Assembly (NCBI GenBank): GCA_037951105.1
Contig: JBAMJV010008294.1
Location: 87,498 to 151,497 of the forward strand
DNA length: 64,000 nt
Direction of reading: 5' to 3'
Source of the DNA: Echinarachnius parma
Lineage: Eukaryota > Echinodermata > Echinoidea > Clypeasteroida > Echinarachniidae
The notes below the pieces were generated by a model, which saw only the letters and a list, made by a program, of their open reading frames with translations, searched no databases and had not been told where the DNA came from. Made by a program: the position numbers and the translations under genes. Below, piece after piece: positions 1,852-60,414 of this stretch; within the stretch, counting starts at the first letter, position 1, and every line of letters begins with the position of its first letter.

Positions 1852-1909
1852 ATGATTTCTTTGATTCCCTACGCACTTTATTGGATAGTTTTTAACCCTC
1901 AGCAGTTTG
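1852..1909 (+). CDS. Exon 1: signal peptide
   Basis: The ATG at 1852 has A at -3 and opens a hydrophobic stretch (M-I-S-L-I-P-Y-A-L-Y-W-I-V-F), followed by a GTAAGA donor at 1910. The exon ends in phase 1, which matches the Ig1 exon at 2516. In-frame ATGs also lie at 1828 (adding MYHLPKFN, a plausible basic n-region; 667 aa in total) and 1774, and the frame is open back to 1738. The choice of start is therefore uncertain. No cDNA evidence is available, but phase, donor and hydrophobicity agree. Confidence 0.6.
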
Positions 1910-4900
1910 GTAAGATATCAATGGTAAATTTGTTATAAATAATAACAATTGATACTCATTTCGTTAAAGATATGCATGCACAAAAAGGAGAGGAATATTC
2001 GATGTATTAACTCGGAACATACTTAGGAAGCCGTTAGTTTTAGTGACTAATTTATGCTTAAAAACTAAATTGATGATTATTGTATCCTTTTTGTTTTAAA
2101 TGTTAGCAAGGATTTCGAGGCCTTACGTAATAACAGGATACTTAATACTACTTAACAGTAAACAACTTTCCACTTTTTCACGCCATCTTGAGTTTTTTGT
2201 TGTCGAAATTAAGTTTAGCTTAGAAGTCCATGTGAGCCATTAAATATTATCATGATTAATGTTTGGATGCAGAAACTAAGCGTTAACAAAGCAACCCACC
2301 CTGTTTGAGATGTGATTGCATATTGCAAAATACGGCCTTAACAACGAGTATAATTAGTTACACTAGGCTACCTTGCCTCTAGAATTAATGGTTTGTGGAA
2401 TTTTCATAATCTGGTCGAGTTATAATTCTCTTGTATAGGCTCATAAACATATAAATATCTTCAAAATTGTCTTGAACCCTTTTTTCGACCATTTATTTTA
2501 AATCTGGTAATGCAGTTTATCCAGTGAGTGGAATAGATAATGATTCCTTTTACAAGACAGAGGTCACAGAAGGTGAGGATGCTCATTTGGATTGCAATTA
2601 TTCCGGAGATGGTTCATCAACTATTTCAATATCTTGGACTTTCCGAGGAGAACAGGTTATACGGTGTGGAATTAATTCCTCACATGAATCGTCTGATGAT
2701 TATGCTATCATCATAAACCGAGCTGAGGGAACGAGTGAATTGACCGTAAGTGACGTAAACAGCGATGATGCAGGAAACTACACATGCCTTGTTTCCGGAG
2801 ACCGAAAATCCCTGAAGATCTTGGTTGAACTTTTAGTCGAACGTGAGTAGCCACCTGCTTTACATTTAAATAATGGTCCCAACACATTTAACTTCAGTTG
2901 GATTCTCCAACTACCATAATGCCTAACAAGTCCTTAATTGATTTGTGCATGAGACTTCATTTCAGTCCCATTATTGTTTATGATTATTTTTCATTTCTAA
3001 CTGTTCGGATCTTTATACTCGTGTGTATTCCTAACAGCTGCTGAGTATTCTCGTATGAATGAAAGCAAAGCTTGCCACTTTCTTGCATATTGGTTCTTAT
3101 GGCTAGGTTTTATCCCCGGCGGTATCACTTCGTATACATTTTAAATAAAAACAAATAGTAAACAAATGGTATACATGCACATTAACGAAAGTGACCCTTT
3201 TTAATGACTACAAATACCGGGATGAATATTAATCATTTGTCACGTTTCACGAACTGATGGATTTTGAAATCTGTACCCTTTTTTTATCATACCCGTGAAC
3301 ATAATCACGACATTACCGCGATTTTGGACCCTTGTTTGCGAAATTGTGCAATTGCGAAATCACGCGTATAAAATCCAATGTGCCGTGACACGCCCGAGGT
3401 TTTATCTCGACTTTATCGTGAACTTGTAGCCTATATGAAATAACTAACGGAAGAAGGATCTGGTTTTATTGACGTTATTCTATTCATCATACACATTCAT
3501 AACAATAACTTTGATATTTAAAGACAAGATAACAACAAACAACATAATAGAGAGAACCAAAAAACACAACACAAATTTATATACGAATACGCAAACCGGC
3601 AAGAAAGAATGGTGAAGTCTTATGTGGTGGTTTTTCCTTATAAAGCAAACCTGCCATAAACACCGATTCCTTCATAATTTCTAAACCAAGAAGATTTTGA
3701 CAAATTTGTCTCGACAAAGATATTCAAATAGTTATGTACATTTGTTGTGAAAAAATCAGGGACATCTATCACTTGATGACTGCCTGAGCATAAGTCAAAT
3801 ACAAAAGTCTCAAGAATTACTTGCGCTTGCCTGCATGTTTACCCGTTGATGTTGATCCATTGTCCTAAAAACAGCACGTGTGATTGAATGCATTATGTTT
3901 CTTTGTAAATCAATACTGCTTGAAATTCTAGCCGTTTTGTTTTTTTCAGTGGCACATGTGGTAAAATGCAATAAACTACACTGATTTGCAATCGCAATAA
4001 AACTGTGGAATTTTATACATTATAATATCCAATAAAGTGCAATAATGTCGAATTCCGCATTTTGACCGTTCTTTATTGTGCTTTCTCAACCATGCATACA
4101 TTGTTTTCTGTGTGTTTACGTATTATTTTTCTAACCACTATAGCAACAAATTTATTTGGCGAGACGAAATCTTAACACAAATCTTGTTTATGAAATAATG
4201 TATTACTTTTTTTAGGTTTGGTAAAGAATATTAACCTAAGGCCTACACCTTATACTCAACAGCATTTTCTAACAATGTTTGAGTAGATGTGAAAGACGGT
4301 TCACATAAATGGCAATGTTCCAGAAGTGCTGACCAATATAAATTTGTTTCGTGTACTTGACATTGAACAAATGCCGTTTTGGTAAATGTGTGTTTGAAAT
4401 GCCCAAAATGGCGTCGTTTTAAATGCATTTTCACTCATTTTTGTGTTAAAGGGAATGTCCGCCATTTGCAAGCCAATGTTCAAAACTTAATGTCTTATTT
4501 GGAAAAAAAGTGTCATTTAACTGCATGCCTAAAGAGCTTGAAATTTCTTTTTCATGGAGTTATAGACCTCAAATAAATTATGCTTCGCGACGCTTTTTAT
4601 TATGCATTACGAGTCTTCGCGCTTGCTAAATTTCGCTTACAATAGCTGCCGATGTATCCCGGGCTATGTGTGACCCCTACGTGACCCGCGCAAAGATTTT
4701 GATCGAAGAACGGCGTAAGCGAATACTAATTAAATAACTAAGACTCGCTAAAACTGACTACATGTAAATGTATATTCTTCATTTTCGAGACCTTTTTAGT
4801 GGCATACATTTATCAATGTCGGCATCTCAATACCTTTACAAGAATAAGTACAATATCGTTGTACTATTATGCTAAATCAGTTAAACGCATTTATTGGCCG

Positions 4901-7900
4901 ATATAAAGTTCGAAAGAGATAATTTCTACACATTCGTTTTTCACTCGTAGAATCCAAACTACAGGATTGTTCGATCTGAAATTTGTTTTTTTTAAGTTAC
5001 ATTCATCCTCATCCGTCTACTGGAAACTGTTCAGACGATTTGTAAATGGTGGACACTCTCTTTAAAGGATTTAATTATAATGAACATGTTTTTGCAACGC
5101 TGGGAAAAGGTGGTCCTCTTCTTTGAAAATTTGTTAACAATCATGTGTTAAACATTTGTGTTTGAAGTGGTATCGCCGAGACAAGCAAGTATAACATCTT
5201 CAAAAAGGATATATCGATTGTGCTTTGTTTCTCCGTTTAGCTCCACCTAATGATATCTTCATACGAGACAGCTCAGGGAAGTTGTACGGTGATAGAGAAA
5301 CTACAGACATGATCATTGGTACTCAGCAAAGCTTTGTCTGCTCTGCTGATCAAGCTGTGCGATTGCCATTTTATCTGACTTGGACAACCGAAGATGATAG
5401 CTCCAATGGGTTTTCTTTCAATAAGGGTGTTCAAGATGAAAATCGCAACAGCATTTGCATTGATGTTAATGTGGCTCGGCCCTCATCACTACGTTTAACG
5501 TGTTCATTGGCAATGAATGGGACTATCAGCAAGAACAAGTCTGCCTTAAACAAGACCATCTATATTGAGGCACGGGGTAAGTTATACAAAATAATTAACT
5601 TATCATACACATTTAGAGTTTATTTGAGACCGCCTATGCGGCTAGAATAACCTCTGACAAATTCTACTAACATGCCATTTATATAAGTATTAAGGCCTTA
5701 TTAATGTATATTTACACAACCCAGGGTGTTGCACATGATGATATCGACAGTCACAGCAAAAATATTATGTGCATCTCAAGTACTATTATATGCTACAGTT
5801 TAAAAACATATTATGTAATATAATGTTTGCATAATTATTCTTTTTGAACCTTCTTAAAAGGATTTTTAAGAGTAAACTTGACATGATGAAACACTTGATG
5901 TATATATACTCTCGCTCAAACAACTCTCGTTTATCAGACTGTATATTCGACAAAAATAGTATCTAAATCCTGATTTGTTTAGATACTCAAACGCTACGAA
6001 CCATACGAAGAGATTTTGAGTGACAAATATGTGATTTTGATAACATCAACATGCCGACTGGAGTGAAAAAACTGGACAGAAAAAGAACGCCAAAGAAAAA
6101 TCCCCAGTGACACGGCGCAAGAGATTTCCATCCCCCGAGAGTTCGGGGTCGGAAACCGACCAGAGCAACACTGACGAGCCAGCAGCACTAGAACTGGACA
6201 ATAACGTCAAAGCGGCTTTTGAGCGTCAAATCGGCCATTCATTGCGAATTCACCGAACCTTATCAAGCAAATTGCACAAGACGTGTGTAAGGTGATAGCG
6301 ACATCGTTCGAAGAGAAAATAACAAAGAAGGTGTACGACGCTGTAAGCCCGAACATGAAAAAGCACAGCGACGAAATAGGAGCCTTGGAGAAGAAAGTGA
6401 CTGACATGAGGTAGGAGATCAAGATGATGAAAAATGAGACCGACGACGCTGAGCAATACAGCAGAAGAAACTGCCTGCGCATATACGGCCTCCCAGAGGG
6501 ACCAGATGAAAAGACAGACGATCTCGTCTTAGATGTATTCAACGCGAAACTCGGTCTCGGAATACCCCGGGAAGCTATCGACCGCAGCCACCGCATCACG
6601 CCGCGTCAGAGGCAGGACGGAAACCGAGACCATGACCCATCCATGCCATCGACATCATTCGTGGACGCGGCACGGAGAAGGAAGCCTAGAGCAGTCATCG
6701 TTCGCTTCAGCCGTTACAACGCACGTAACGAAGTCTACAGAGCGAGAACCAAGCTGAAAGACGTACAGGGCCCGAAAATCTACATTCGCGAAGATCTGAC
6801 AAGCAAGCGGGCCACACTCTACTGGGAGCTGGTCAACAGCAAGAAAACAAAGACATGCTGGACCCAAGATGGGTCCATCTTCGCCCTCACGCGAGACTCC
6901 AAGAAAGTGAGAATCAGCGACGCCCATGACATCGAAAACTTGTAAGAAAATACTCATCTTCATAACTTGTCTTAATATTATAGCGTACCATTAAATATGT
7001 CATGCAATGCTGCTAACGATGAGTTTCCATGTCTGATCTGCCGCAAAGAAGTAAAGGAGAATCATAATGCTTTGTCGTGTGTTACATGCAACAAATTGGC
7101 ACATTTTAAATGTTCAAGAGCTTCTTGGGACACCTTCAACTCCGACAGAAACTGGACTTGTGACATATATCTTTTTAAAGAATTACCACAAACTGTACAT
7201 TTTAATGAAATTGACGTCTTATGATCCATCACAACATAGAGTGGATGTATATAAGTATGACAGTGTTGAGAACACTTTTGATAAACTGAAATCTTCTTCA
7301 GGCATTAATATTGCCCATTTGAATGTCTGCTCACTGTTTAAAAATATTGATGAGGTGAAACATATTTTGATAAATAATAACATTCATATATTTTCTTTAT
7401 GTGAAACACGATTAGATGAGTCTGTTAGTGAAGCAGAAATATGTATTCCAGGTTATAGAAGTGTAAGGCTAGACCGAAACAGAAATGGAGGTGGGATTAT
7501 CACATATATTAAAGATAATATACCATTCAATGTAAAACAGGACCTCATGTTTGATGACTTAGAGCTCATGTGTATTGAAGTTTCCTTACCCAAACAAAAA
7601 ACATGTATGGTTGTATATTGGTACAGACCACCGAATTCCCAAAATATCATGTTTGATAAATTTGAAGCATTACTTCAGCTATTGGAATCAACATCGAAAG
7701 ATGTTTTAATTATGGGAGACCTAAATTGTGATTTTATTAAAACACCATTAAATCATCAGACGAAAATACTGAAACGTTTGGGTGAGGAATATGATTTAAA
7801 ACAGCATGTTGATAAACCAACAAGAGTAACACCAACTTCTTCAACCTTAATTGATGTACTATTTTCTTCAAATCATGACAAAGTTACCTTCTGTGACGTC

Positions 7901-10900
7901 ATCCCACTGAGCTTGAGTGATCATTATATGATAGTATGCTCTCTCGGAAGAGTAAACTATCCTAAAGCACAGCATAAATATGTTAATTCTCGCAATATGC
8001 GTAGATTTGACGTAGATAAATTCAAAACTGATTTACGTCAAGTGAACTGGGATGATGTTTTAGAAGATTCTGATCCAAATACTGCGTATGAAACTTTGGC
8101 TGTTAAGTATAATATAGTTTTGAATAAACATGCTCCTTTAAAAAGAAAAAGAGTGCGTCAAAAAGAGTCATCCTGGATTAATGATGATATATTGAATAAA
8201 ATACGTGAACGAGACCGTATGAAACGTAAAGCTAAACGTACTAAACTAGATAGTGATTGGACTTTGTATAAAAAATCACGAAATTCTGTGACGGCAATGA
8301 TAAGGAGAGCAAAACGTTCATACGTCTCTGAAAGTATTTTGAATAATACAGGTGATAGCACAGCAATGTGGAAGTCATTGAGGCGCATAATGCCTAAAAA
8401 ACGAAATGTTGGCTCTATTCCAAAAATTACTGTTGATAGAAAAGAAATAACAGGTTAAAAAAATATAGCATCATGTTTTAATGATTATTTTGTTGATTGA
8501 GCTACAAGAAGGAAAGAGACCAGAAAGTTTGGTACTAATATGGAGCAGTATATGACTCCCGTTGATTCTATATTTAGGTTTAAAGAAATTTCCCAAGAGG
8601 ATGTTTTGAAATGTATACATGGTATTGCAAGGAACAAGGCCACTGGCCTTGATCAAATCCCCGCTAGCGTTGTTAAAGACTCTATTGAATGTATTGTTCA
8701 ACTACTTACACATATCATCAATTTATCACTAGTGACGGGAAAATCCCCGATGCTTGGAAAAAGGCTCGTGTAACTCCCATACACAAAAGTGGAGATACCT
8801 CAGACCCCACACATTATAGACCGATTTCGATCCTTCCTATTTTGTCAAAAGTATTGGAACAATTGGTATTCAATCAAGTATATGATTATTTGTCGGTAAA
8901 TAATTTACTGAATCAAAATCAACATGGTTTTCGCCCTAACCATTCTACTTTAACTGCCCTTATGTCTTTGACTGATGATATGATCAAATCTATAGATGAA
9001 GGAAATGTAGTTGGTGTTGTTACACTAGACTTAGAAAAGGCTTTTGACTTGATATCCTTCGACATATTATTGAAAAAACTAAAATACTTTGGCTTTGACC
9101 AAACAGTTATTAAATGGTTTCAGAATTATTTTTTGGGTAGAGAGCAATCCACATTAGTAAATGGAAGTTTATCTTCGAGCCGAACTGTAAAAAGTGGTGT
9201 ACCCCAGGGTAGTATACTTGGGCCGTTATTATTTATTATTACATTGAATGATATAGTATGTGTTTTGATAGGTCTTAGTATGCACACATACTCCCTCTGT
9301 GGATTGGTTGTTCTATGTTTATATTCTACATGTTGCAAAGGCTTCCAGGGGGTGTGTGGGAAATTAAGAAAACAGCATAAGCATATGCTTTTACTTTTAG
9401 TCATTACACACCTCTGGAAGTTGTTTAATTTTACCATGATTTATCATGCAAGAAGTAGATAATTCAAGGGAGAGTGTTCATATGAGGAAATAGCACATAT
9501 TTGTAGGCATAAATAAGGATTAATTCAACTAGCGCAAGTGCGCTTGCGACTTTTTATGTCCGTCCTTTTCATTTCTTGCAAATATTTAAATCACAATTAA
9601 AGTGTTTTTAAGAGGTGTCAAACTTGAGATTCATATTCCTTGATGTTGTCTTCTTATGGTTTAAACATTTGGTGGCCCGATCGGGCCACCAAACTTTGGC
9701 ATTTTCATGTTTTTACTGGCCCGACCGCAACTTTTACTGGCCCCGGGCCATCGGGCCTACGCCAATTTCGAGCGTTGGATATACATAATCTGTTAATAAA
9801 TGTTCAATCTCTCTTTACGCTGATGATACATGTATGTACTATGCTTCAAAGGATCCCAAAGATTTAGAGAAATCAATTAATGATGACTTGAAGTCTATAA
9901 TGCGTTGGTTTTCAAGTAATGAACTTTTGCTTAATATACCCAAAAGTCAATTTATTTTAGTTGGATCAAAACACAATTTGCGCCAGTTTTCTGATGTTAT
10001 AATAAGTATTGGTAATACAAAATTACAGAAAGTTACGGAGTGTAAACATCTTGGGGTCATGCTTGATTGTAATCTTTCATGGGACCAGCAATAGACTTTG
10101 TAAGGAAAAAGGCACTAAAAACATTCCACGCTCTCAGACGAGTTAGGCAGTTAGTAGATCAAACGACTTTTCTTGTACTTTATAAGACTTTGATTCAACC
10201 CCACTTTGATAATAATAGTTTGATTTGGATGAATGGGCATCTTACACAGTTAAGTCGCCTTCATGTTATACAAAATAGATGCTTACGTTTGGTACTTGGT
10301 GTAAATAGTCGCTTCAATAGAGAAACTTTATATAGAACACTTGGTGTCGATCAACTGGAAGTTCACCGAAAGAAACAAGCTTTGGTTTTTATTTTTAAGT
10401 TACCATGTTACTACACAATCTTGCCCCTCCATTGTTGTCATCCCGCATAGAGTTAAAACCCCACTTAGAGTATAGATTGCGACATGCAAACACCCAAATT
10501 GAATTGCCTCGACCCCGCACAAACTTTATTCGAAATAGCCCATTATATGATGCATCAAAACTGTTTAACATTCTACATATTTATTTACGAATTATACACG
10601 ACGTTAAGATATTTAAAAAGGAAATTATGAAGCTACCCATACTAGATTTATAATTCATGTGCATATTAGTTGTTCAATGATTGTTTTTACTCATGTATAT
10701 ACTTATGCCTATTGGTTTCCTCGTTCATTCTGATTAGTAAATTATTATTACCCCAATCTTTGTAAATATGTGTTTTTTCCCCCTGTTTAAATAACTTGTT
10801 TGTAATTAATATTTTGTATTATTTTATGTATTTCTGTATTCTTTTGTCTCACGGCTCTGCTGAAAAACAGCTTGTAGCTGAAAGCGGGCATTTTATTATT

Positions 10901-19900: not shown

Positions 19901-22900
19901 GCCCAACGTTGGCTTGCCTACTGTCGAAATGTGGTTGTTTGTCAAATGTTGGTTTGACGTCAACTAGCCAACCAATATCCAACGTCGCTCATTGACTGAA
20001 TGGGGTAGTAGGCGAAACGTTGGCTTGCCTACCGTCGAAATGTGGTTGTTTGTTAAAGGTTGGTTTGACGTCAGCTAGCCAACCAATATCTAACGTCGCT
20101 CATTGACCGAATGTTATAGTAGGCGAAACGTTGGCCTAACGTTGGCTTGCCCACCGTTGAATGTGGTTGTTTGTTAAAGGTTGGTTTGACGTCAGCTAGC
20201 CAACCAATATCGAACGTCGCTCATTGACTGAATGTTGTAGTAGGCGAAACGTTGGCCTAACGTTGGCTTGCCTACCGTCGAAATGTGGTTGCTTGTCAAA
20301 TGTTGGTTTGACGTCAACTAGCCAACCAATATCGAACGCCGCTCATTGACCAAATATTGTAGTAGGCGAAACGTTGGCCCAACGTTGGCTTGCCTACCGT
20401 CGAAATGTGATTGTTTTTTAAATGTTGCTTTGACGTCAGCTAGCCAACCAATATCCAACGTCGCTCATTGACTGAATGTTGTAGTAGGCGAAACGTTGTC
20501 CTAACGTTGGCTTGCCCACCGTCGAAATGTGGTTGTTTGTTAAAGGTTGGTTTGACGTCAGCTAGCCAACCAATATCCAACGTCGCTCATTGACCGAATC
20601 TTGTATTAGGCGAAACGTTGGCCTAACGTTGGCTTGCCTTCTGTCGAAATGTGGTTGTTTGTTAAATTTTGGTTTGACGTCAGCTAGCCAACCAATATCG
20701 AACGCCATTCATTGACGTAATTACGTAGTAGGCGAAACGTTGACTTAACGTTGGCTTGCCTATTGTCGAAATGTGGTTGTATGTCAAACATTGGTCTGAC
20801 GTCAACTAGCCAACCAATATCCAACGCCACGCATTGGCCGAATGTTGTAGTAGGCGAAATGTTGGCCCAACGTTGGCTTGCCTACCGTCGTAATGTGGTT
20901 GTTTGTCAAACGTTGGTTTGACGTCAACTATCCAACCAATATCTTACGCCACTCATTGACCGAATGTTCGGTCATATAGTCGTATAGTCTATAGTCGGCA
21001 CCGTCGCGGTTGGCAAAACAACGTTAAGCCAACGTTGGCCTAAGGTAAATTTACAACCACATCTTTGCAGTTGGCGAGCTGACGTTCAAACAACGTTAAG
21101 CCAACGTTGTCTGTTGACTGTTGGCAAACTGATTGGCAAATGTACGTTGAAACAACGTTGGGTGATAGTTGGACGAACAATCATATTTCTATGGTCGAAA
21201 AACAAACGTTGGACCAACGTTTCGCCTACTACGACATTGTGTCGATGAGCGGCGTTGGATCTTGGTTGGCTAGCTGACGTCGTACTAACGTTTGGCAAAC
21301 AACCACATTTCGACGGTAGGCAAGCCAACGTTATACCAACGTTTCGCCTACTACGACATTGTGTCAATGACTTGCGTAGGATATTGGTTGGCTTGTTAAC
21401 GTCAGACCAACGTTTAATACACAACCACATTACGACGGTATGTAAGCCAACGTTGGGCCAACGTTTCGCCGACTACAACATTCGGTCAATGAGTGGCGTT
21501 AGATATTGGTTGGCTAGTTGACGTCAAACAAACGTTTGACATACAACCACATTTCGACAATAGGCAAGCCAACGTTAAGTCAACGTTTTCGCCTACTACG
21601 TCATTACGTCAATGAATGGCGTTCGATATTGGTTGGCTAGCTGACGTCAAACCAACGTTTGACAAACAACCACATTACGACGGAGACAAACCAACGTTAG
21701 GCCAACGTTTCGCCTACTACAACATTCGGTCAATGAGCGACGTTGTATATTGGTTGGCTAGCTGACGTCAAACCAACCTTTAACAACCACATTTCGACGG
21801 TGGGCAAGCCAACGTTATTCCAACGTTTCGCCTACTACAACATTCGGTCAATGAGCGACGTTTGATATTGGTTGTCTAACTGACGTCAAACCAACATTTA
21901 ACAAACAATCACATTTCGACGGTAGGCAAGCAAACGTTGGGCCAACGTTTCGCCTACTACTATATTTGGTCAATGAGCGGCGTTCGATAATGGTTGGCTA
22001 TTTGACGTCAAACCAACATTTGACAAGCAACCACATTTCGGCGGTAGGCAAGGCAACGTTAGGTCAACGTTTCGCCTACATATACAACATTCGGTCAATG
22101 ATCGGCGTTGGATCTTGGTTGGCTAGCTGACGTCAAACCAACCAATAAACAACCACATTTCGACGGTAGGCAAACCAACGTTAGGCCAACGTTTCGCCTA
22201 CTATAACATTCGGTCAATGAGCGACGTTCCATATTTGTTGGCTAGCTGACGTCAAACCAACATTCAACAAACAATCACATTTCGACGGTAGGCAAGCCAC
22301 CGTTGGGCCATCGTTTCGCCTACTACAATATTTGGTCAATGAGCGGCGTTCGATATTGGTTGGCTAGTTGACGTCAAACCAACATTTGACAAGCAACCAC
22401 ATTTCGGCGGTAGGCAAGGCAACGTTAGGTCAACGTTTCGCCTACATATACAACATTCGGTCAATGATCGGCGTTGGATCTTTGTTGGCTAGCTGATGTC
22501 AAACCAACCTTTTACAAACAACCACATTTCGACGGTAGGCAAACCAACGTTGGGCCAACGTTTCGTCTACTACAACATTCGGTCAATGAGCGACGTTGGA
22601 TATTGGTTGGCTAGTTGACCTCAAACCAACCTTTCTCAAACAACCACATTTCGACGGTATAGGCAAGCCAGCGTTAGGCCAACGTTTCGCCTACCACACT
22701 ATTCGTTCAATGAGTGGCGTTGGATAGTGGTTGGCTAGTTGACGTCAAACCAACATTTGACAAACAACCACATGTCGACAGTAGGCAAGCCAACGTTGGG
22801 CCACCGCTTCATCCTACTACAACATTTGGTCAATGAGTGGCGTTGGAAATTGGTTGGCTAATTGACGTCAGACCAACGTTTTACAAAACAATCACATTTC

Positions 22901-25900
22901 GACACTAGACAAGCCAACGTTAAGCCAACGTTTGGCCTACTTGGTAATTGGGTTAATGAATAGCTTTGAATATTGATTGGCTAGCTGACATCAAACCAAT
23001 ATTTTACAAACAACCACATTTCGATAGAAGGCAAGCCAACGTTAGGCCAACGTTTCGCCTACTACAACATTCAGTCAATGAGCGATGTTCGATATTGGTT
23101 GGTAGCTGACGTCAAACCAACCTTTAACAAACAACCACATTTCGACGGTAGGCAAGCCAGCGTTAGGCCAAAGTTTCGCCTACTACGTAGTGTCGTTATT
23201 GGTTGGTTGAATGAGATTTGGCCAACGACGAACTGATAGCAAGCCAACAGTTATGATACATATGATTAATACTTCTTATTAATCATAACATTTTCCCGCT
23301 CAATTTGACACTTTTTCAATCGAAATCATTCAAATTCACGCATTGCCGTGTAATTGTTGGAATCGGTCTTTCAAATTCCGAATAAGTGCATACGCATAAG
23401 CTTTCGTCTTTAATCAACGTTTACAAAACGTTTACAAAACTTTTTTATTAGGTCAAGTATATCTTCGTCTTTAATCAACGTTTAAAAAACGTTCTTCAAA
23501 CGTCTCCAGCGTCCGACAGGTTTTCTGCTGGTACTTGCACTTCAAATCAAATACATTGAAAGGTTTTTTGTTGTTTTTTCTAACGTTTAAACAACGATTT
23601 AAAAACGTTCATTTGGAACGTTCTAAAAACGTTTTCAACCTTCCACAAAAACACGTTTTAAAAACGTTTTCACATAACGTCCAAATAACCGACTTTGAAC
23701 CTGTTTAGAACGTTCAGAAAACGTTCAATTGTTAGTTGGGTAGCATTCACGAATGTGCAGCCAAATAATCGTTTGATGAAATTATATAATGACAATAAAA
23801 ATAAGATAATAATAATGTTTCGATTTATATAGCGCCTAATTTAATGATATTATAACCCTGGTCATCGGGGGTCATCGGACACACTCACAATCAATCCACA
23901 CGATATACAATTAAGTACAATTACATACACGTTCTACTCCTACAGGGTAAATTGGTAGAGCACAGCAATATTGGATTAATTGTCTTGCTTAATTAAGGAC
24001 AAACGAGAACGCGAACATTTTACCACACCACGTCTACAATTTTGTGTACGGTTCAAGTTATGTTATTATTTTATGAACACCACTGCGAAGTTTATAGCAT
24101 TGATCAATTTAATTCATCAACTGTGTACGTATCAGTGACAAAAGAGCTGGAAGTGTTACAAACAGAATCTTTTTAGATTTCGCAAAGGACTAACAACACT
24201 TTTCCCTACAAGTTCATGAAATCCGCATAGACTTTGCACACATCCCACTCGGTGCCCGTGGTCAAGGGGTATTTATCCGATATCACTATAACTTACGATG
24301 TTTTTTTTCTTCTCGATTACCGTGTAGTTTCAAAATGATCTGTAGTGGAACCAGCGTTTTTCCTCATATACAAACGATTTCCAAACCTACTTTATTATTT
24401 CCATTTGGGATTGTTTGCAGATTATTCTAGCCGGTTTCGCATTCTTTAGAGAGGATTTACACATAGATTTAAATGTAATAAAGTCAAATATTGACGCATT
24501 TCATATAGATGTAAAGAAAATATATTAGACCAAATTCATGCTTTTTATATAGAAATCGTTACCGACAAAATGTTTTTTTGGTATCAAGGATTCGTATTAA
24601 AGGTTAGTTGAGTTGAGTTTTGGTATAAAGGGCGCTACACACAATATTTGTGTGAGATAATAAACAAACGGAGTGTCAAATTTGAAAGAGCATACAATTG
24701 TAATGACAGAATATTAACTTAATTTGATCAAAATTTGTTCAGAAATGCCTGAGATATCCATTAACATAACATTTAAAAAATGTTCGGGAACACAAAATAT
24801 AACTTTGAACCGGCCGCTAACAAATTAAAAAATTGCTTCTCCTTTTTAAAAAGGTACTATTAAAGATGTTTTTAAATACTTGTTGATTATCTCTCTATCT
24901 AATAACTATTTCAACAAATCATGACATGCACAACATTTTATTTGTAAAGACCTTTTAAAACCAATAGGTTTTTAAAGAGCGTCCTTTTGAGTTTTAACGT
25001 TTTTTTTTTGTAATGGGAACATGCTTTGTACTTAGTCGTTTGTCATGTGTTGTGTAATTCCTTTCGAGCATGGTGGAGTAAGTTATAACTGTCAGTTTGT
25101 AATGTAATGATGCAGGTTTTAGTTAATACAACTCAGGTTAACCAAAGCTGAACTCTCTTTACCAAAACTCAACTATCCTTTTAATGAAAACATCATTGAT
25201 GAAGTGGATTGTACTTCATTTGTAGTAAAATAGATACGTATATTACGAACAAAAGATTAACCACTGCTATACATTTCACGGGGAAAATTGATTAACAAAA
25301 TGCAAGATAGCTAAATCAAGACAGATATAGGGAAACAGTCCATTTCATTCATTGGGGCAGTAATTTTAGATGAACCTCCATGTGACTTAAAATGTACGAT
25401 GTCACGATATGGATTTCGTAAATTGTACAATGATTAAAATATATTTTAATTATGTTCTACCAACAACGTATGAAAACCTTTTTGGAACATTTTGGATTGT
25501 TGTAATATTATCGATAATATAATGTACATTCTATACTTGTATTGCTTATAGTTGTATAAGGGCTAGTTTTGACTAACATACTATGCAATGTCTGTCCTTT
25601 TTAATAAATGACGGGAAATTGTGAAATATTGTACATTATATGATTTTGCTGAATTGGTAAATGAATACAATTAAATGAAATGTTATTAACAAAATATTAG
25701 GGGTGCAAAGCCCCTTTGCACAGTCCCCTCTTTATTCACTTTGATACATCTATTAATTAGTGATTTATGATCGGTAAAGGTTGGTTTCGCAATCGATCCC
25801 AATGCGTCGTAAGTGGGCCGACGTTGGGCCAACGTTGGCCCAACGCAGAATTATTATCGGGGTTCATGATCGATTATAAACGATCATATAGTGAACAGAA

Positions 25901-28900
25901 AAATTGCTATTTTTGCTATTATTTGTATTGAAAACAGTGTTATCATGTCCTTGTTTTTCTATATAATTTATAAAACTATAAATGACACCTGAATATAGTG
26001 TTATGAATATGATTCAAAGGCTAATTATTTTAGAATATACTCTCAATCTACTCTTGACAATTACTAACCACTAACAAATGTACTTAGTATGTATAGGTAT
26101 ATATATACTAAGTCGATTGTATAGTATGTTGTTAAGACGATAGGATAGGATAGGTTAGAATGATAGGTATAGGATTAGGTGTAGGATAAGGATGTAGGAA
26201 TAGTGTTTGCATGAAGGTAGGGTAGAATTTGTAACACCATCAATCAATCTTTTTTTTTTTAAGTTTTCGTATTGTTGGCTAAAGGTTGGCTCAAGTTTGG
26301 CTAAACGTTGGCCCGATGTCATAAGTAGCCAACTGAAAGGTTGGGCAAGGGTCGGGAAAACGTTGGCCCAACACTTGTACGACGTTGGCTTGTGGGGTTG
26401 GGCCAACGAGGGTCCAGCGGCAAGAATGACGTGGGCCAAACGTCACGTTTTTACGTTGGCCCGACATTGACTTATAAAGTCGTATCAACGTTGGGGTTTA
26501 GTTGGCTCAATGCTGGCTTGACGTCAGAAATAGCAAAATAAAAGGTTGGGCAAACGTTGGCTCAACATCGTAGCAAGACGTTGGCTTATGGGGGTTGGGC
26601 CAACGAGGGCCCAGCGGCAAGAACGACGTGGGCCATACGTCACGTTTTAACGTTGGCCCGACATTGACTTATATAGTCGTATTAACGTTGGGGTTTAGTC
26701 GGCTCAATGTTGGCTTGACGTCAGAAATAGCAAAATAAATGGTTGGGCAAACGTTGGCTCAAAATTGTCAATTGACGTTGGCGTATGGGGGTCGGGCCAA
26801 CAAGGGCCCAGCGACAAGAATGACGTGGGCTAGAGGTCACGTTTTGACGTTGGGCCAACATGACCGCCTACATTGGGCCAACGATGGGCCAACGTATCAT
26901 TGTTATCTGGGAATGAGTCATATCATTCCGGAGTAATATTCAAGTCTTTATTCAAGCTCCAAACCAGTCTCACATACATGTAGTATACAGTATAGATCTC
27001 GGGAGCATGCAGCTGAACACGTGCTAGCCCAGTAAGGGTCTGAGCCAGCAATCCTCCTTAATCCAGGGGCACACATCAATATATAGCTAAACCAGGGTGG
27101 TTTCAATTATACAAGGGAGCTGTTCAGAGAAGGGGAGGGGGTGATTTACTACTGAACACCTGTGCACGTGGTCATCTATCCCATGTGGGGTGGTTTCATT
27201 CAGGGGCTTATAAAAGGGATGTTGTTCAGAGAAGGGGAGGGGTGATTTACTACTGGACACCTGCCATGTACTCGGGGACGGAACATCAAAGGTGTTTGTC
27301 CAGGGAAAGGGATCATCAACATTATTGGGGAGCAGACGGGAAGTCTGGTCTGGGGGATCATGTTGACCATAAAACATTGGGGGGGTACACTAGCTAGGAT
27401 TAAATTACATTTCCGAGGGTCAATGGTCTGAATATATAAGAGGGGCATGTTAGGGTAATATTACTTTTACTAAGAAGGGGGGAGGGGTATTTAGACTACT
27501 AATACATTACACTCATGCGCATGCAATTACACTCGGAGACGCGCGCGTACGCGTCCCGTCAATTAAAAAAAAAAAAAAATAATGCTCAAAACCCTAACCC
27601 GAGTAATTTACTATATGTTTCAGACAATTTTAAGCGTTTCAAAAATTTCCGCGCGTGCGCGTCGGCGCGCGCGTATTTGCGCGCGTAACGCAAATGAACA
27701 GAAAATGGCGTGTTTTTACATTTGCAATCCTTACACATTCCTTAATGCACCCTATCAATTTGAGCCATTCTTGACTCATAATGACGGAGTACGCGCGCGT
27801 CAAAGTCAAAATTACGCGCGCACGCAAAATGGCAAAACAATGTAAAAACATCCTTTTTTATTCGGCCATAACTTTTTGTAAAGTCCACAAACACCAATTC
27901 TATATTAATATTCGGATAGATTATGAGTTGTAGATACGAATTCATACCTCATTTATGCCGAGTAAATGTTATAAAGTCATCATATTGAGGGTTAAAGTTG
28001 AAAATACGAATTTTAACCCATTTTAATCGATTATGAAATCGATCACAGGGGACTTTCAACCATATCTCGCTTATTCTCCATCGATTTTCTCCCAGATTTC
28101 GATATGTTGTAGCTGAAGTTATGCTTTACAGGTGCTGTGGTTTAAATTATCTAATAATATGAATTCAGGAACTATAATGTGTCTCTATACAATTGTGATT
28201 AGTCTGCCACGCGTATTTGCGCTCGTAACGCAAATAAATAGGGAAAATGCCGTTTTTTCACATGTTTTGCAATTCTTATACATCTCTCAACACACCCTAT
28301 CAATTTGAGTCATTGTTGACTCATAATAACGGAGTACGCGCGCGTCAAAGTCAAAATTACGCGTGCATGCAAATTGGCAAAATATGGTAAAAACATCCTT
28401 TTTTTTATTCGGCCATAACTTTTTAAAAAGTCCATAAACACCCAATTTTATTTTAATATTCGGATAGTTGTAGATACGAATTCATACCTCATTTATGCCA
28501 AGTAAATGTTATGACATCATCATATTAGGCGTTGGAAAGTCAATATCATCATATCGTAATTTAAATACGTATAACCTTAATTCGTCAAAAGTGACGAATT
28601 CAACGTCTAGTTATCTTTATAATGCTTATTTTAAAAAAAATGCTCAATGTTGACGAGGTGGTAACAACCCTGAATTTTCTCTAGGAACCATGAAGAACTT
28701 GATTAGCAAAATAAACATCAGACTTATGAATGTGTCCAGGTCTAATACACGACATATAGAACCGGCTACTGGACTAATAAGCTAAACAACACGATAGAAG
28801 AGAAACGAGGAAGCTCCAAGTAATTTTCGTGGAGTTAGACACTTTAATAACAGGTATTCCTTTAATTTCACTAGTCGAATGACAGCTGAAGGGAATGTTT

Positions 28901-29606
28901 ACTATAAATATTCTGTTCAAGAGCTAATAGTTCTTAGGAACACATATATTGCCCTTCGTTTCATCATAATCATTGCGTCTGTTATGGCAAATGTATTTGT
29001 TAATAATTGTATTTGGTATATTATATCTTATTGTGTTCTCAGGATTTGGAAGTAGGATACGAGGAGATAAATGATGCATTCCGTGGGACCATCCGCAATT
29101 TAGTGGTAAGTACAACTGTTGCATTAATGAAACATATTATGAAAATCAAAATGTATGTTCTAGAATACAGCACTGATGTAATTGTCATTGGTAACATAAC
29201 TTCATTGTTGTTGTAGTGTGTTGGTTATGTGGAAGCAAATTCTCATTTTAAAAACTATGCAACTAAACCTAACAGTTAACCGTGACTTCGAATATGAGAC
29301 AGTGTTTTATTTACCAATTTCCAGCGGTAATTTGGTGGGCCATTTATTAACTCTATGGGCCTTGTACAATCTTTTAGGAAACAGGTTAAGAGTGATTCTC
29401 TCTGTCACCAAAGCATTATAATAGCAAAGATATGTAAATAATTCATGCATGCAAGTAGCCTTCTTATCTAGTCCCGTTTTCTTTTAATGTCATTCTCATT
29501 GAAACAGAAGAGCAACGTGAATGAACACGATCCTGCGACATATAACGGCAGGATACTGCCAGATTATCCGCCGACCGGAGAAACGGTTCTTGATACTTCG
29601 CTCTAG
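1852..29606 (+). CDS. Ig-superfamily type I membrane receptor, nine exons, ITIM-like tail
   Basis: The assembled gene joins 1852-1909, 2516-2842, 5241-5576, 12454-12735, 13244-13549, 14244-14390, 14704-15065, 29043-29105 and 29508-29606. Every junction has GT-AG borders and matching phase (1-1 through the Ig and TM exons, then 1-0, 0-0, 0-stop). The total is 1,980 nt, or 659 aa. Order: signal peptide (1-20), Ig1 (21-128), Ig2 (129-240), Ig3 (241-334), Ig4 (335-436), stalk and transmembrane segment (437-485), cytoplasmic tail (486-659). Many NxS/T sites fit an extracellular, glycosylated part. The tail has V-G-Y-E-E-I at 610-615 and ends T-S-L. Consecutive phase 1 Ig exons are standard for the Ig superfamily. 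Family traits imply adhesion or immune-type signalling at the cell surface. The ligand and orthology are unknown, so no symbol is given. The first exon and the far tail exons are the least certain parts. Confidence 0.8.
2516..2842 (+). CDS. Exon 2: Ig domain 1
   Basis: The acceptor is TGCAG at 2515 and the donor is GTGAGT at 2843; phase 1-1. This is a textbook V/I-type Ig fold: first Cys in HLDCNY, core Trp in SISWTF, and the F-strand motif D-D-A-G-N-Y-T-C. These are residues C46, W60 and C110 of the assembled protein. A second CAG at 2523 could act as an alternative acceptor but would change the phase. This is the most canonical of the four Ig domains. Confidence 0.88.
2843..5240 (+). other. 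Intron 2, no gene seen
   Basis: This is a 2.4-kb AT-rich intron between the Ig1 and Ig2 exons. I see no exon with matching phase and Ig hallmarks and no clear mobile element, although a TTAAAGGGAATGTCC block near 4446 resembles the TTAAAGGG starts of the MITEs elsewhere in the window. Confidence 0.5.
5241..5576 (+). CDS. Exon 3: Ig-like domain 2 (divergent)
   Basis: The acceptor is TTTAG at 5240 and the donor is GTAAGT at 5577; phase 1-1. It encodes a degenerate Ig-like domain with Cys in SFVCSAD, Trp in LTWTTED and a later L-R-L-T-C strand, but without the usual D-x-G-x-Y motif. It is rich in N-glycosylation sites near its end (NGT, NKS, NKT). Its place in the phase 1 exon series supports the call more than its sequence does. 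Confidence 0.78.
6051..6945 (+). pseudogene. LINE ORF1: coiled coil plus RRM-like domain, broken
   Basis: ATG at 6051 begins a Lys-rich start that stops at TGA 6108. A shifted frame continues (RRKRFPSPESSGSETDQ) to about 6290. A third frame gives a coiled-coil-like stretch (EIGALEKKVTDMR), a TAG at 6412, then the core E-Q-Y-S-R-R-N-C-L-R-I-Y-G-L-P-E. That core matches the conserved start of L1-type ORF1 RRM (Transposase_22-like) domains, and the frame ends at 6945. The protein normally coats the element's RNA. Two frameshifts and one stop disable it. Confidence 0.8.
6997..8458 (+). pseudogene. LINE ORF2 N-part: PHD-like finger and APE endonuclease
   Basis: ATG at 6997 opens a PHD-like finger (CLICRKEV, SCVTCNKLAHFKC, NWTC) that ends at a frameshift near 7220. 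The endonuclease continues in another frame to a stop near 8456. APE motifs are visible in order: IAHLNVCSL (Asn), SLCETRLDES (Glu), GGGIITYI, YRPP, MGDLNCD (Asp/Asn), TLIDVLF and LSDHYMIV (Asp-His). This is the target-nicking enzyme of non-LTR retrotransposition. The stop between endonuclease and RT breaks the polyprotein. Confidence 0.87.
9256..9783. mobile_element. Insert of about 530 bp inside the LINE RT
   Basis: It splits the RT between the L-N-D-I codons and the segment leading to YADD. The 6-mer GATATA occurs immediately before the insert (9250-9255) and at its far end (9778-9783), consistent with a target-site duplication. The insert has no ORF match and no clear TIRs. It contains a perfect 26-bp palindrome at 9668-9693 and a GGCC-rich block. 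The element type is unknown. Confidence 0.68.
9668..9693. repeat. Perfect 26-bp palindrome
   Basis: The sequence is self-complementary over its whole length, with 13-base arms (TTTGGTGGCCCGA and its exact complement). It lies inside the insert that interrupts the LINE reverse transcriptase. Confidence 0.9.
10951..12453 (+). other. Rest of intron 3, no gene seen
   Basis: This AT-rich stretch lies between the LINE tail and the Ig3 exon. I see no supported exon, RNA gene or repeat boundary in it. Confidence 0.45.
12454..12735 (+). CDS. Exon 4: Ig domain 3
   Basis: The acceptor is CTCCAG at 12453 and the donor is GTAAGA at 12736; phase 1-1. The frame is open from the acceptor, reading PPTITSNIQ and onward. 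Ig hallmarks are Cys in LNCSLP, Trp in LQWSKH and the strand E-V-G-H-A-G-I-Y-N-C. It starts with a Pro-rich linker typical of the beginning of an I/C2-type domain. Several NxS/T sites are present. Confidence 0.87.
12909..12930. repeat. Poly(C) tract in intron 4
   Basis: An uninterrupted run of about 22 C lies between the Ig3 and Ig4 exons. Similar C or G homopolymers recur at 33938, 34610-34655, 39121, 43444, 53669, 55983, 59691 and 62551. Confidence 0.9.
13244..13549 (+). CDS. Exon 5: Ig domain 4
   Basis: The acceptor is TTAAAG at 13243, after a T-rich tract, and the donor is GTAATT at 13550; phase 1-1. The Ig hallmarks are Cys in LFCLINSYP, Trp in VTWTD, and N-L-G-N-I-S-C-V-A-R-N in place of the usual D-x-G-x-Y-x-C. 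The NHVGE-type turn after the second Cys is common in I-set domains. This is the membrane-proximal Ig domain. Confidence 0.85.
13836..14145 (-). mobile_element. Truncated retroelement 3' end in intron 5
   Basis: It opens with (TTCAA)5 followed by ATTTGGTTTATTAAAAA. Read on the minus strand this is a TTTAATAAACC-type 3' end followed by an (AATTG)n tail, the layout of a 5'-truncated LINE or SINE. The other boundary is unclear. No ORF is recognised. Confidence 0.5.
14244..14390 (+). CDS. Exon 6: stalk and transmembrane segment
   Basis: The acceptor is ACCAG at 14243 and the donor is GTAAGT at 14391; phase 1-1. An acidic stalk (TELQEDD) is followed by roughly 24 hydrophobic residues (VVTITIGIGVLCLYLVFVFF), then R-L-I-I-N-I-K as a positively charged stop-transfer. 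This sets the topology: Ig domains outside, C-terminus inside. Confidence 0.87.
14704..15065 (+). CDS. Exon 7: cytoplasmic tail, membrane-proximal part
   Basis: The acceptor TTTTGAAG at 14703 restores the frame from exon 6 (phase 1). The nearby CGCAG at 14710 would not. The donor is GTAAGC at 15066, phase 0. The product is a roughly 120-residue Ser-, Asn-, Gln- and Arg-rich segment of low complexity, with a basophilic site SRHASMDS and a Pro-rich stretch near PVIPHVPANPSS. I recognise no folded domain. It likely acts as a disordered signalling tail. Confidence 0.72.
15066..15525 (+). other. Start of intron 7, no element seen
   Basis: AT-rich intron sequence between the exon 7 donor and the first MITE. 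Nothing further is recognised. Confidence 0.45.
17092..17122. repeat. 14-bp-arm palindrome at 5' end of the Helentron-like element
   Basis: TAGGTTATACGTAT and its exact complement are separated by ATC. The right arm carries the TACGTATAACC motif that recurs next to the 3' hairpin at 28567-28576. Confidence 0.85.
17464..17805 (-). repeat. Direct repeat R1a, LTR-like
   Basis: 342 bp, nearly identical to 26912-27358 but lacking an internal block of about 105 bp. Read on the minus strand it has a TATA-like stretch, then GAATAAAGACTTGAATATT (a polyadenylation-like signal) close to its end, a U3-R-U5-like arrangement. TG...CA ends, a primer-binding site and gag/pol are not seen, so the LTR identity is only suggested. 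Confidence 0.55.
18248..18495 (+). repeat. Minisatellite, about four diverged units
   Basis: The block TGTAACTTGGCTAGGGTTAC followed by A(T/C)AAATTGT(G/A)AA(T/C)ACAGT recurs four times at irregular spacing (starts near 18252, 18298, 18401 and 18447). The surrounding repeat GCAACGGG(T/A)GCGCT appears three times between 17850 and 18515. Confidence 0.7.
19029..19555 (+). repeat. Left outer arm, ~200-bp units
   Basis: About 2.5 units with a 200-bp period, each containing GGGCCAACGT(T/C)AAAACGTGAC, CCCACGTCATTCTTGCCGCT and TTTATTTTGCTATTT. The block is inverted and highly similar at 26270-26911. Confidence 0.88.
19556..20990 (+). repeat. Forward tandem array, about 12 units of ~120 bp
   Basis: Each unit reads roughly TTGCCTACCGTCGAAATGTG, TTTGACGTCA(G/A)CTAGCC, AACCAATATC(C/G)AACG, CTCATTGACCGAATGTTGTA and GTAGGCGAAACGTTGG in order. 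Eleven of about 12 units keep the 8-bp palindrome TGACGTCA. Units differ by scattered substitutions, so the array is not freshly amplified. Confidence 0.9.
20991..21186. repeat. Spacer at the centre of the inverted arrays
   Basis: About 200 bp separates the forward and reverse arrays. It contains several AACGTTAAGCCAACGTTG-type pieces and TATAGTCGTATAGTCTATAGTC. It marks the symmetry point of the palindrome. Confidence 0.75.
21187..23200 (-). repeat. Reverse tandem array, about 16 units of ~120 bp
   Basis: Inverted version of the 19556-20990 units: AACGTTTCGCCTACTACAAC, TTCGGTCAATGAGCGACGTT, GATATTGGTTGGCTAG, (C/T)TGACGTCAAACCAAC and ACAACCACATTTCGACGG follow one another at ~120-bp steps. 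It has more units than the forward array, so part is unpaired in a hairpin. Confidence 0.9.
23201..24596. other. Interior of the foldback element, no gene
   Basis: Positions 23410-23720 are rich in AACGTTT/AAACGTT motifs (a different CpG-containing repeat). Positions 23805-24010 contain TTTATATAGCGCC and TTGTCTTGCTTAATTAAGGAC, which look like a short interspersed element fragment. I see no coding sequence. Confidence 0.45.
24601..25180 (+). mobile_element. MITE family A, copy inside the foldback element
   Basis: It is flanked by TTAA on both sides (24597-24600, 25181-25184). The left TIR region AGTTGAGTTTTGGTA and right TTACCAAAACTCAACTATCC are complementary. The interior shares the GGGCGCTACA, TTTGATCAAAAT, CTTAGTCGTTTG and GAGCATGGTGGAG blocks of the family. 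Confidence 0.82.
25185..26269. other. Interior of the foldback element, second part
   Basis: AT-rich, no gene. A lone patch of ACGTTGGGCCAACGTTGGCC at 25818-25840 matches the core motif of the arrays. Positions 26090-26200 are rich in TATAGG/GATAGG. Confidence 0.45.
26270..26911 (-). repeat. Right outer arm, ~200-bp units
   Basis: About three units in inverted orientation relative to 19029-19555, ending with the terminal CATTGTTATCTGGG. Blocks such as AGCGGCAAGAATGACGTGGG and AAATAGCAAAATAAA match the left arm's complement. Confidence 0.88.
26912..27358 (-). repeat. Direct repeat R1b, LTR-like, longer copy
   Basis: It abuts the terminus of the 7.9-kb foldback with no gap. It matches 17464-17805 and has an extra block of about 105 bp because GAGAAGGGGAGGGG(G)TGATT and its surroundings occur twice. 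The extra block brings GGGCTTATAAAAGGG on the + strand. Confidence 0.6.
27655..28555 (+). repeat. Two-copy tandem repeat, ~541-bp period, CpG-rich motifs
   Basis: GCGTATTTGCG(C/T)... near 27671 and 28212 starts two diverged copies. Shared blocks include CACCCTATCAATTTGAG, GGAGTACGCGCGCGTCAAAG, TCGGCCATAACTTTTT and TACGAATTCATACCTCATTT. The CGCGCG runs stand out in an AT-rich background. It forms the 3' part of the Helentron-like element. Confidence 0.78.
28579..28610 (+). repeat. 3' hairpin and CTAG terminus
   Basis: AATTCGTCA, loop AAAG, TGACGAATT (perfect 9-bp stem), then CAACGT and CTAG. The host sequence resumes with TTATC. Confidence 0.75.
29043..29105 (+). CDS. Exon 8: 63-nt tyrosine-motif exon
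   Basis: The acceptor is TTCTCAG at 29042 and the donor is GTAAGT at 29106. The exon is exactly 21 codons, phase 0-0, reading DLEVGYEEINDAF and onward. V-G-Y-E-E-I fits the ITIM consensus (V/I/L/S-x-Y-x-x-I/V/L), and Y-E-E-I is the classic preferred Src-family SH2 ligand. Phase 0 at both ends means it could be skipped without a frameshift. It is joined to exon 7 across a 14-kb intron on phase and content alone. Confidence 0.65.
29508..29606 (+). CDS. Exon 9: C-terminal exon with stop codon
   Basis: A CAGAAG tandem acceptor (NAGNAG) ends at 29507 or 29510; both keep the frame and differ by one Lys. The exon encodes 32 residues (KSNVNEHDPATYNGRILPDY and onward) and ends D-T-S-L before TAG at 29604-29606. 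T-S-L fits the class I PDZ ligand pattern S/T-x-hydrophobic. Two more tyrosines (Y639, Y647) lie here, the latter in a P-D-Y-P-P context. Confidence 0.65.
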   Translation, partial: KSNVNEHDPATYNGRILPDYPPTGETVLDTSL

Positions 29607-39120: not shown

Positions 39121-39320
<200 letters not shown>

Positions 39321-41745: not shown

Positions 41746-41824
41746 CCTAAGAGTGCAGACGTACACCCTGACTAGGGGTGCACATTGTGCACCCCTGCCT
41801 GGGGTGTACGTCTGCACTCTTAGG
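41746..41824. repeat. 79-nt near-perfect hairpin
   Basis: A 23-base outer arm (41746-41768) is exactly complementary to 41802-41824. A 5-base internal loop follows on each side, then an 11-base stem AGGGGTGCACA / TGTGCACCCCT with one unpaired T at 41785. It lies at the alpha-beta junction of the first module set only. Confidence 0.93.
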
Positions 41825-60412: not shown

Positions 60413-60414
60413 GT

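Follow-up and report, generated by a model that had tools for sequence, protein, structure and literature searches.

The locus described here raises the question of whether an echinoderm genome encodes a surface receptor of the immunoglobulin superfamily (IgSF) with a signalling tail and, if so, what kind of receptor it might be. The window (i.e., the whole analyzed stretch of 64,000 nucleotides of Echinarachnius parma DNA) had earlier been interpreted, from its letters alone, as carrying a type I cell-surface IgSF receptor in an invertebrate genome, and this sequence-only reading is supported by the present analysis. The nine exons with consistent phases that it proposed, all on the forward strand, join into one reading frame of 659 aa with a single stop at its very end. 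The introns are GT-AG in 8/8 cases and all eight junctions check out, the three that had been named (1909/2516, 15065/29043, and 29105/29508) being exact. The deduced protein comprises a signal peptide, four Ig-type domains (D1–D4), one transmembrane (TM) segment, and a 175-aa tail, and its exon phases are, in order, 0/1, 1-1 (five times), 1/0, 0-0, and 0/stop. The phase 1-1 layout is usual for Ig genes with one domain per exon, and each of the five exons from D1 to the TM segment of the window gene has it.

Exon 1 (1852..1909, ending in phase 1) encodes the signal peptide (MISLIPYALYWIVFNPQQF), with a possible cleavage site after residue 25 (VSG/ID), and its counterpart is alike in the four other copies in which it was found, i.e., C3588, C12587, C8765, and C7050 (such symbols, e.g., C6493, denote contigs of the same genome assembly; the searched genome comprises 1.20 Gb in 14,790 contigs). 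The translation start at 1852 is not certain, because in-frame ATGs are present upstream of this exon at 1774 and 1828.

The domain composition was examined by Pfam and by comparison with solved structures. D1, of the V/I-set (exon 2, 2516..2842, phase 1-1), matched I-set (4.5e-12) and V-set (5.8e-8), D3 (exon 4, 12454..12735, phase 1-1) matched Ig_3 (4.1e-8), and D4 (exon 5, 13244..13549, phase 1-1) matched C2-set_3 (1.3e-8) and I-set (1.6e-8). D2 (exon 3, 5241..5576, phase 1-1, with strong splice sites) is Ig-like by its C-W-C pattern only: there was no Pfam match in the window copy and no Ig match among eight family members, the domain alone found nothing in PDB, its profile gave only sub-threshold PDB matches (the best being Ig chains of LRIG1/LRIG3, E 0.15-0.22), and a single-sequence AlphaFold model had a pLDDT of 34 and no usable fold. 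Since the pattern (C-x13-W...C spacing; C33-W47-C87 of the domain) is invariant in 8/8 aligned copies, D2 is counted as probably an Ig domain. Thus, of the four Ig domains originally proposed, three are confirmed by Pfam and the fourth is only probable. The single TM segment, in exon 6 (14244..14390, phase 1-1) together with a juxtamembrane stalk, is borne out by a mean hydropathy of 2.66 over aa 459-477. Exon 7 (T7; 14704..15065, phase 1-0), encoding the proximal cytoplasmic tail, had neither Pfam nor PDB matches.

No orthologue had been named from the sequence, and the search of the assembled protein against solved structures likewise gave no clear one: among the best 60 of 128 PDB sequences, Fc receptor-like protein 5 (FcRL5), DSCAM, and contactin-2 lead. 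The top match, FcRL5, reaches 6.5e-13 summed over domains and 0.0096 for its best single stretch, and it is taken as general Ig similarity because DSCAM and contactin-2 follow closely.

Several peculiarities of the extracellular and membrane parts may be mentioned. In the D1 pattern IRC-G-x-x-C, the first cysteine is present in 41/41 copies and the second, four residues on, in 35/41; the window D1 has serine at the latter position, which leaves one D1 cysteine without its usual neighbour. An extra cysteine found in D2 of 3/8 copies (window included) might pair with it. In C1626, C9922, and C8174, a single open frame (312-384 aa) spans D1 and D2, as though their separating intron had been lost or were readable. 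The TM segment of C7050 and C8765 has the sequence AMRIAVFY[IL]FLVF, in which an arginine falls within the span (TIGIGVLCLYLVF in the window copy). Activating receptors that signal through an adaptor typically have a basic residue in the TM segment; C7050 and C8765 keep the long YEEI tail despite this arginine.

A doubt about the 3' end of the gene model came from intron 7, which is 14 kb long. Exon 8 (29043..29105, 63 bp, phase 0-0) carries the motif EVGYEEIND with Tyr612, and exon 9 (29508..29606), the terminal coding exon, ends with LPDYPPTGETVLDTSL and a stop, giving a C-terminus that resembles a class I PDZ ligand. In principle, both exons could be part of another gene, with the receptor ending at the stop at 15125, up to which exon 7 remains open in frame. 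Yet in 5/5 near copies with a tail region examined (C6493, C3588, C7050, C8765, and C11110; the sixth, C12587, is covered only through D2), exon 7 is followed on its own strand by exons 8 and 9. The gap between exons 7 and 8 measures 451-3016 bp in these five, and that between exons 8 and 9 a further 376-1409 bp (placing exon 9 within 0.9-4.5 kb of exon 7), with splice sites conserved. As the near copies carry them after exon 7, the two exons are evidently part of the predicted receptor gene, which answers the doubt, voiced when the gene was first proposed, that they might belong to a different one.

The great length of intron 7 is recent. The intron consists mostly of a 13.3-kb repeat block (15523..28861, no strand assigned, left edge approximate) that is not part of the receptor and is regarded as one or more late insertions, because it is missing from two near copies: in C6493 positions 15522 and 28862 are only 4 bp apart, and in C3588 positions 15433 and 28862 are only 18 bp apart. 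With these empty insertion sites and the near copies, the separate-gene explanation is rejected for the family and, for the window itself, retains a barely appreciable probability. A non-LTR retrotransposon in intron 3 (5908..10940, forward strand, left edge approximate), also not part of the receptor, contains endonuclease (Exo_endo_phos, 3.1e-11) and reverse transcriptase (RVT_1, 6e-27) matches in separate broken frames; it is likewise taken as a late insertion, because it is absent from C7050 and C6493.

It should be added that exon 8 is the sole open 0-0 segment of 30-250 nt with such strong splice sites on the forward strand of the window, and that no such segment with sites as strong was found on the reverse strand. 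Splice scores, calculated with approximate, self-made matrices, were rejected as proof by themselves, since a 1-1 phase segment of no known meaning (56197-56280) outscores exon 8 (13.6 vs 12.0).

The window contains further repeats. Within intron 7 there is a foldback at 19027-26911, with 122-bp tandem arrays in opposite orientation (19549-20968 and 21205-23186) and, flanking them, 197-bp arrays with inverted 533-bp arms (19027-19559 / 26380-26911) that are 95.7% identical. A 176-bp (CA)n microsatellite occupies 39135-39310, and the part of the window from 40752 to 64000 is a diverged tandem duplication of blocks (62178-64000 vs 43053-44900, 97.7% identical; 60412-61643 vs 41822-43057, 95.5% identical), in which no gene was recognised by inspection. 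The Rfam search at gathering thresholds gave no match and the tRNA scan found none.

The predicted receptor was also compared with its own genome, which mitochondrial characters assign to an echinoderm. At the COX1 locus, ATA encodes Ile, AGA Ser, TGA Trp, and the single AAA Asn (at a site nearly always occupied by Asn), as in the echinoderm-type code, and the genes are arranged as cox1-trnR-nad4L-cox2 (trnR called by ARAGORN, nad4L and cox2 recognised by inspection); this code and this arrangement both characterize echinoderms. The whole protein gave at least 73 matches (67 of 331 candidates scored), D1 gave 47 matches at E<=1e-5 (all 120 candidates scored), and D3 gave 55 at the same threshold (all 79 candidates scored). 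Near-complete D3 matches (>=90 of 93 residues, >=58% identity) numbered 43 including the window, two of them with an internal stop. The exon 7 search indicated 34 places (51 rows, of which 17 represented the TM exon only). Judging from these searches, the genome holds dozens of copies, and the receptor is a member of a large family. The match numbers are not gene counts, because some places are probably two haplotypes of one locus, as titin-like stretches appear twice. Matches to I-set (titin-like, by their long open frames) on C2848 and C4949 occur in mirror order with near-identical scores. The assembly thus seems to hold both haplotypes, so that matches outnumber genes and some of the "paralogues" may be alleles. 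Some loci look degenerate because of a premature stop in exon 9 of C6402 and stops inside D3 of C6993 and C1241. On viral contigs, two stretches fitted the search pattern and neither encodes a relative.

The conservation of the tyrosine motif was analyzed in 31 copies: the 16 matches of the exon-8 search (window included), 14 copies chosen by exon 7, and C8174, chosen by D1 and its terminal exon. They represent 30 of the 34 exon-7 places plus C8174, the places left out being C4563, C10665, C1376, and the second one on C11564. The motif exon was seen in 29/31 copies and, among the 15 selected without regard to exon 8, in 13; in C2234 and C2858, a search of 1 kb per copy did not reveal it. In all 29 copies with exon 8, the tyrosine, E(+1), and I(+3) are invariant and the -3 residue is acidic (E or D). 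Position +2 is E in 27 (hence YEEI in 27/29), K in one (YEKI), and D in one (YEDI), and position -2 is mostly V (25 copies), with L in two others and M in the remaining two, C8845 and the second C2072 copy. Moreover, pN/pS was lower in exon 8 (0.30 in near copies and 0.28 in all copies) than in the other eight exons, while the highest values among near copies were those of D4 (0.88), the TM exon (0.81), and D1 (0.76), no exon-wide value exceeding 1; these values were pooled over pairs, which are non-independent. As Y, E(+1), and I(+3) never vary and pN/pS is lowest in this exon, the motif is evidently under purifying constraint.

What the motif might bind is a separate matter. The window tail had been called ITIM-like for its VGYEEI, and the pattern [IVLS]xYxx[IVL] indeed fits 27/29 copies with exon 8 and is constrained; it is an ITIM by sequence only, and among the four tail tyrosines (Y491, Y612, Y639, and Y647) only Y612 fits it. 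Since 21% of shuffled tails contain a loose ITIM, its presence means little by itself and was rejected as evidence when taken alone; Y[DE][DE][ILV] occurs in 0.7% of such tails. Classical inhibitory receptors usually carry two ITIM/ITSM motifs, suited to tandem-SH2 phosphatases; a check of the four tyrosines revealed no second ITIM/ITSM in this tail. An ITAM is formed by two YxxI/L spaced 6-12 residues, and this assignment was rejected, as there is one YxxI and neither of the following tyrosines, at distances of 27 and 35 residues, fits. Src-family SH2 domains prefer glutamates at +1 and +2 (pYEEI), and an ITIM requires neither. The fixed glutamates would therefore favour a Src-family SH2 reading over an ITIM or a hemITAM. 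Kinases with YEEI tails have been described (PMC4140816). Exon 8, being 63 bp long and of phase 0-0, could be skipped without a change of frame; such a transcript would lose the YEEI motif alone and still encode the PDZ-like end.

Apart from the motif, the analysis revealed two alternative tail ends, A (DTSL-type) and B (SEDGYLVP), which were absent from the original interpretation. Of the 16 copies from the exon-8 search, window included, 14 yielded exon 9; none was found in the 3 kb examined for C10294 and C11564 (C12871, C1626, C9922, and C2234 were left out of this survey). The 14 ends are DTSL (nine), ETTL (two), YTTL (one), DTSF (one), and a premature stop (one), so that 13/14 A copies with exon 9 have a PDZ-ligand-like (class I) end, with final Leu in 12 and Phe in one; an end of the D[ST]xL type occurs in 0.06% of shuffled tails. 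The more distant B group keeps YEEI in exon 8 and has a different terminal exon with SEDGYLVP, which ends 7/7 B copies read, none of which has a PDZ-type end. This terminal exon gave 30 genome matches at E<=0.01, the motif not being read in every one.

Comparison of synonymous sites showed divergence between copies to vary along the gene. Between the window and C6493, synonymous differences amount to 18/73 in D2 and to 3/165 in D3, D4, and TM together, and between the window and C3588 they amount to 4/146 in D1 and D2, 17/129 in D3 and D4, and 1/119 in TM and T7. Because selection on the protein does not readily explain such unevenness of synonymous changes, it points to exon-scale mosaicism by exchange between copies. 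In a test of uneven divergence along the exons (eight pairs, synonymous and other changes pooled, 20,000 simulations), no simulation was as high as the observed value for six pairs and 36 were for one, and C6493 vs C11110 showed no mosaicism (2,832 of 20,000 as high). Hence, 7/8 pairs are uneven along their exons, as expected of a multigene family with exchange between loci, one of the hallmarks of paired receptors.

Another hallmark, related ectodomains joined to different tails, was found for D1, with tails linked to heads by contig position. The tree of 41 D1 domains contained 17 with an A tail, 16 with a B tail, and eight without a label. Labels were hand-made, each D1 taking the type of the first tail exon that follows it on its contig and strand (exon 7 is the sole basis for C2234 and C4563, and the terminal exon for the C4570 copy located at 46 kb), and a few may mislead (tandem genes, misassembly), because heads and tails are linked by contig position. 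On this tree a minimum of six changes of tail type is needed, each of them forced by well-supported branches (bootstrap range 6-6). Tail types nevertheless cluster: shuffled labels averaged 11.4 changes, and a number as low as the observed one was reached in just 2 (A) or 1 (B) of 500. An example of the change is C8174, whose D1 is 71% identical to the window D1 and whose tail is of the B type, with an exon 7 of 45% identity to a B copy and 33% to the window, the exon 8 motif DVDYEEIDG, and a B-type end. The D1 alignment (42 sequences fetched of 47 places, five weak ones being left out, and one dropped for a stop codon) showed a strict framework and only moderate variation in the 41 intact copies, so a hypervariable D1 was rejected. 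The analogy with vertebrate paired immune receptors, drawn in the sequence-only reading, has gained support from the multigene family, its mosaicism, and the two tail types on related D1 domains.

Considering all these data, we find it reasonably probable that this is a shuffled echinoderm IgSF family signalling through the phosphorylated Tyr612 in the manner of Src-type SH2 ligands. In such a receptor, the four Ig-type domains would be exposed at the cell surface to bind a ligand, which may be carried by another cell, and engagement or clustering would lead to phosphorylation of Tyr612 within E-V-G-Y-E-E-I-N-D by a Src-family kinase. Phospho-Tyr612 might then be bound by an SH2 protein, for which a Src-family kinase is the likeliest candidate and an SHP-type phosphatase the alternative. 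In A-type members, the C-terminal DTSL (D/E-S/T-x-L) would hold the receptor in a PDZ scaffold, whereas B-type members would have, in place of this end, an exon bearing a second conserved candidate site of tyrosine phosphorylation, SEDGYLVP. Domains and tail ends may be reassorted between loci by gene conversion or unequal exchange, giving related heads with different outputs. A more far-reaching proposal, which we put forward tentatively, is that of a paired-receptor system built on one phosphotyrosine switch, in which heads are recombined with two output ends while EVxYEEIND stays near-fixed, exon-8 skipping serves as the off state, and the whole has been assembled independently for self/non-self or microbial recognition. 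Any immune or allorecognition label calls for caution, as D1 is not hypervariable and a PDZ-type C-terminus is common in adhesion molecules.

Indeed, the same PDZ-type end in 13/14 A copies would equally suit an adhesion molecule acting in the way of JAM, Kirrel, or nectin, i.e., by homophilic or heterophilic Ig contacts, DTSL-mediated PDZ anchoring, and coupling of phosphotyrosine to actin. The better sequence matches of the N-terminal domains include JAM-A, NCAM, and DSCAM, and the skeletogenic cells of sea urchins have an Ig protein, KirrelL/IgTM (PMC6768484). We nonetheless consider this explanation rather improbable: the B members read have no PDZ-type end, the 52 PDB sequences that D1-D2 matched include no chain named Kirrel, nephrin, or SYG, and dozens of loci with mosaic exchange would, in our judgement, be unusual for housekeeping adhesion. 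Unlikely, too, is a true ITIM receptor, in which phospho-Tyr612 would recruit an SHP-type phosphatase or SHIP and dampen a partner activating receptor on coelomocytes. It would agree with the mosaic multigene family and with the pattern itself (27/29 copies, a hydrophobic -2 residue, and the invariant I(+3)), and ITIM or hemITAM tails are attributed to Botryllus FcoR and Hydractinia alr in PMC12065747. Against it, one of four tail tyrosines fits, two copies have Met at -2, the fixed E(+1) is no ITIM requirement, and no activating partner has been identified; FcRL5, the best PDB match of the whole protein, would speak for it were this match not general Ig similarity with DSCAM and contactin-2 close behind.

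The hemITAM, a single YxxL after an acidic run (DED-G-Y as the lead-in in Dectin-1), offers a further model, in which one YxxI after acidic residues would recruit Syk to a receptor dimer and activate it. The E or D at -3 in 29/29 copies and the B-tail SEDGY, close to the hemITAM lead-in, are in line with this; still, there is no acidic triplet before Y612, the +3 residue is I and not L, and the B exon has P at +3 (YLVP), a better fit to pYxxP, an adaptor-type phosphotyrosine site. Even with the hemITAMs that Botryllus FcoRs carry (PMC12065747), such a receptor seems quite unlikely here, and signalling of the Src/SH2 type is preferred.

Among known systems, the FcoR family of the tunicate Botryllus schlosseri is instructive. 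It is described as a large IgSF family with 53 reported loci, a V-type Ig domain, two C2 Ig domains, one TM segment, and a long tail with an ITIM, hemITAM, or YxxI/L/V core motif that differs between members (PMC12065747). The window receptor resembles it as a member of a large invertebrate IgSF family with V-type and C2 Ig domains, one TM segment, and a long tyrosine-motif tail; nevertheless, FcoR has, by that account, a sushi domain in the position of D2, and FcoR membership was rejected, as D2 has no sushi match and its two cysteines are conserved in 8/8 copies. Furthermore, in the family of the window receptor the tyrosine motif is near-fixed and the tail end varies. The alr receptors of Hydractinia share the character of invertebrate IgSF receptors with ITIM/ITAM-like tail motifs encoded in a gene complex, although theirs is a cnidarian allorecognition complex (PMC12065747). 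Similarly, two proteins of the Pacific oyster are mollusc IgSF receptors, i.e., CgIgIT2 with five Ig domains, one TM segment, and an ITAM (PMC11999971) and CgSiglec-1 with two I-set domains (PMC5877582). They belong with the window receptor among invertebrate IgSF receptors and differ from it in that the ITAM of CgIgIT2 is absent here and the cited descriptions of both mention no shuffled family. Thus, invertebrate IgSF receptors with ITIM, hemITAM, or ITAM tails (FcoR, alr, and CgIgIT2) are already known.

The likeness to vertebrate systems is one of organization. KIR, SIRP, Siglec, and CEACAM families have related ectodomains with different tails, phase 1-1 domain exons, and exchange between loci, all of which are shared by the family described here; unlike in vertebrate paired receptors, both tail types keep YEEI, and no short-tailed, adaptor-coupled member has been shown. 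The V-set of Siglecs is without the usual B-F disulfide and has a sialate-binding arginine, and Siglec membership was rejected, since D1 keeps the canonical cysteine pair in 41/41 copies. Nearest in taxon are the sea urchin KirrelL/IgTM, likewise an echinoderm Ig-domain TM protein (PMC6768484), and other echinoid proteins. The latter, IGTM (Hibino and Nonaka 2013), are reportedly echinoderm Ig-domain transmembrane proteins as well, and both may be related to the present family or even identical with it. A literature search limited to open-licence papers found no echinoderm family of the present description.

PMC12065747 presents tunicate, cnidarian, and vertebrate allorecognition or NK-like families as unrelated receptors that converge on ITAM/ITIM signalling. 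If plain adhesion proves to be the function of the receptors found here, the family would still be an unusual expansion. The features described provide defined peptides for testing (pY612, the C-terminal DTSL, and SEDGpYLVP) as well as heads and tails already exchanged in nature, as in C8174. The deuterostome branch beside the chordates would be filled in by an echinoderm family of mosaic build whose YEEI switch is near-fixed and whose two ends are exchangeable and, if the paired-receptor reading is true, this family would constitute a further family of recognition receptors outside vertebrates, tunicates, and cnidarians, in which the same class of heads gives different signals.
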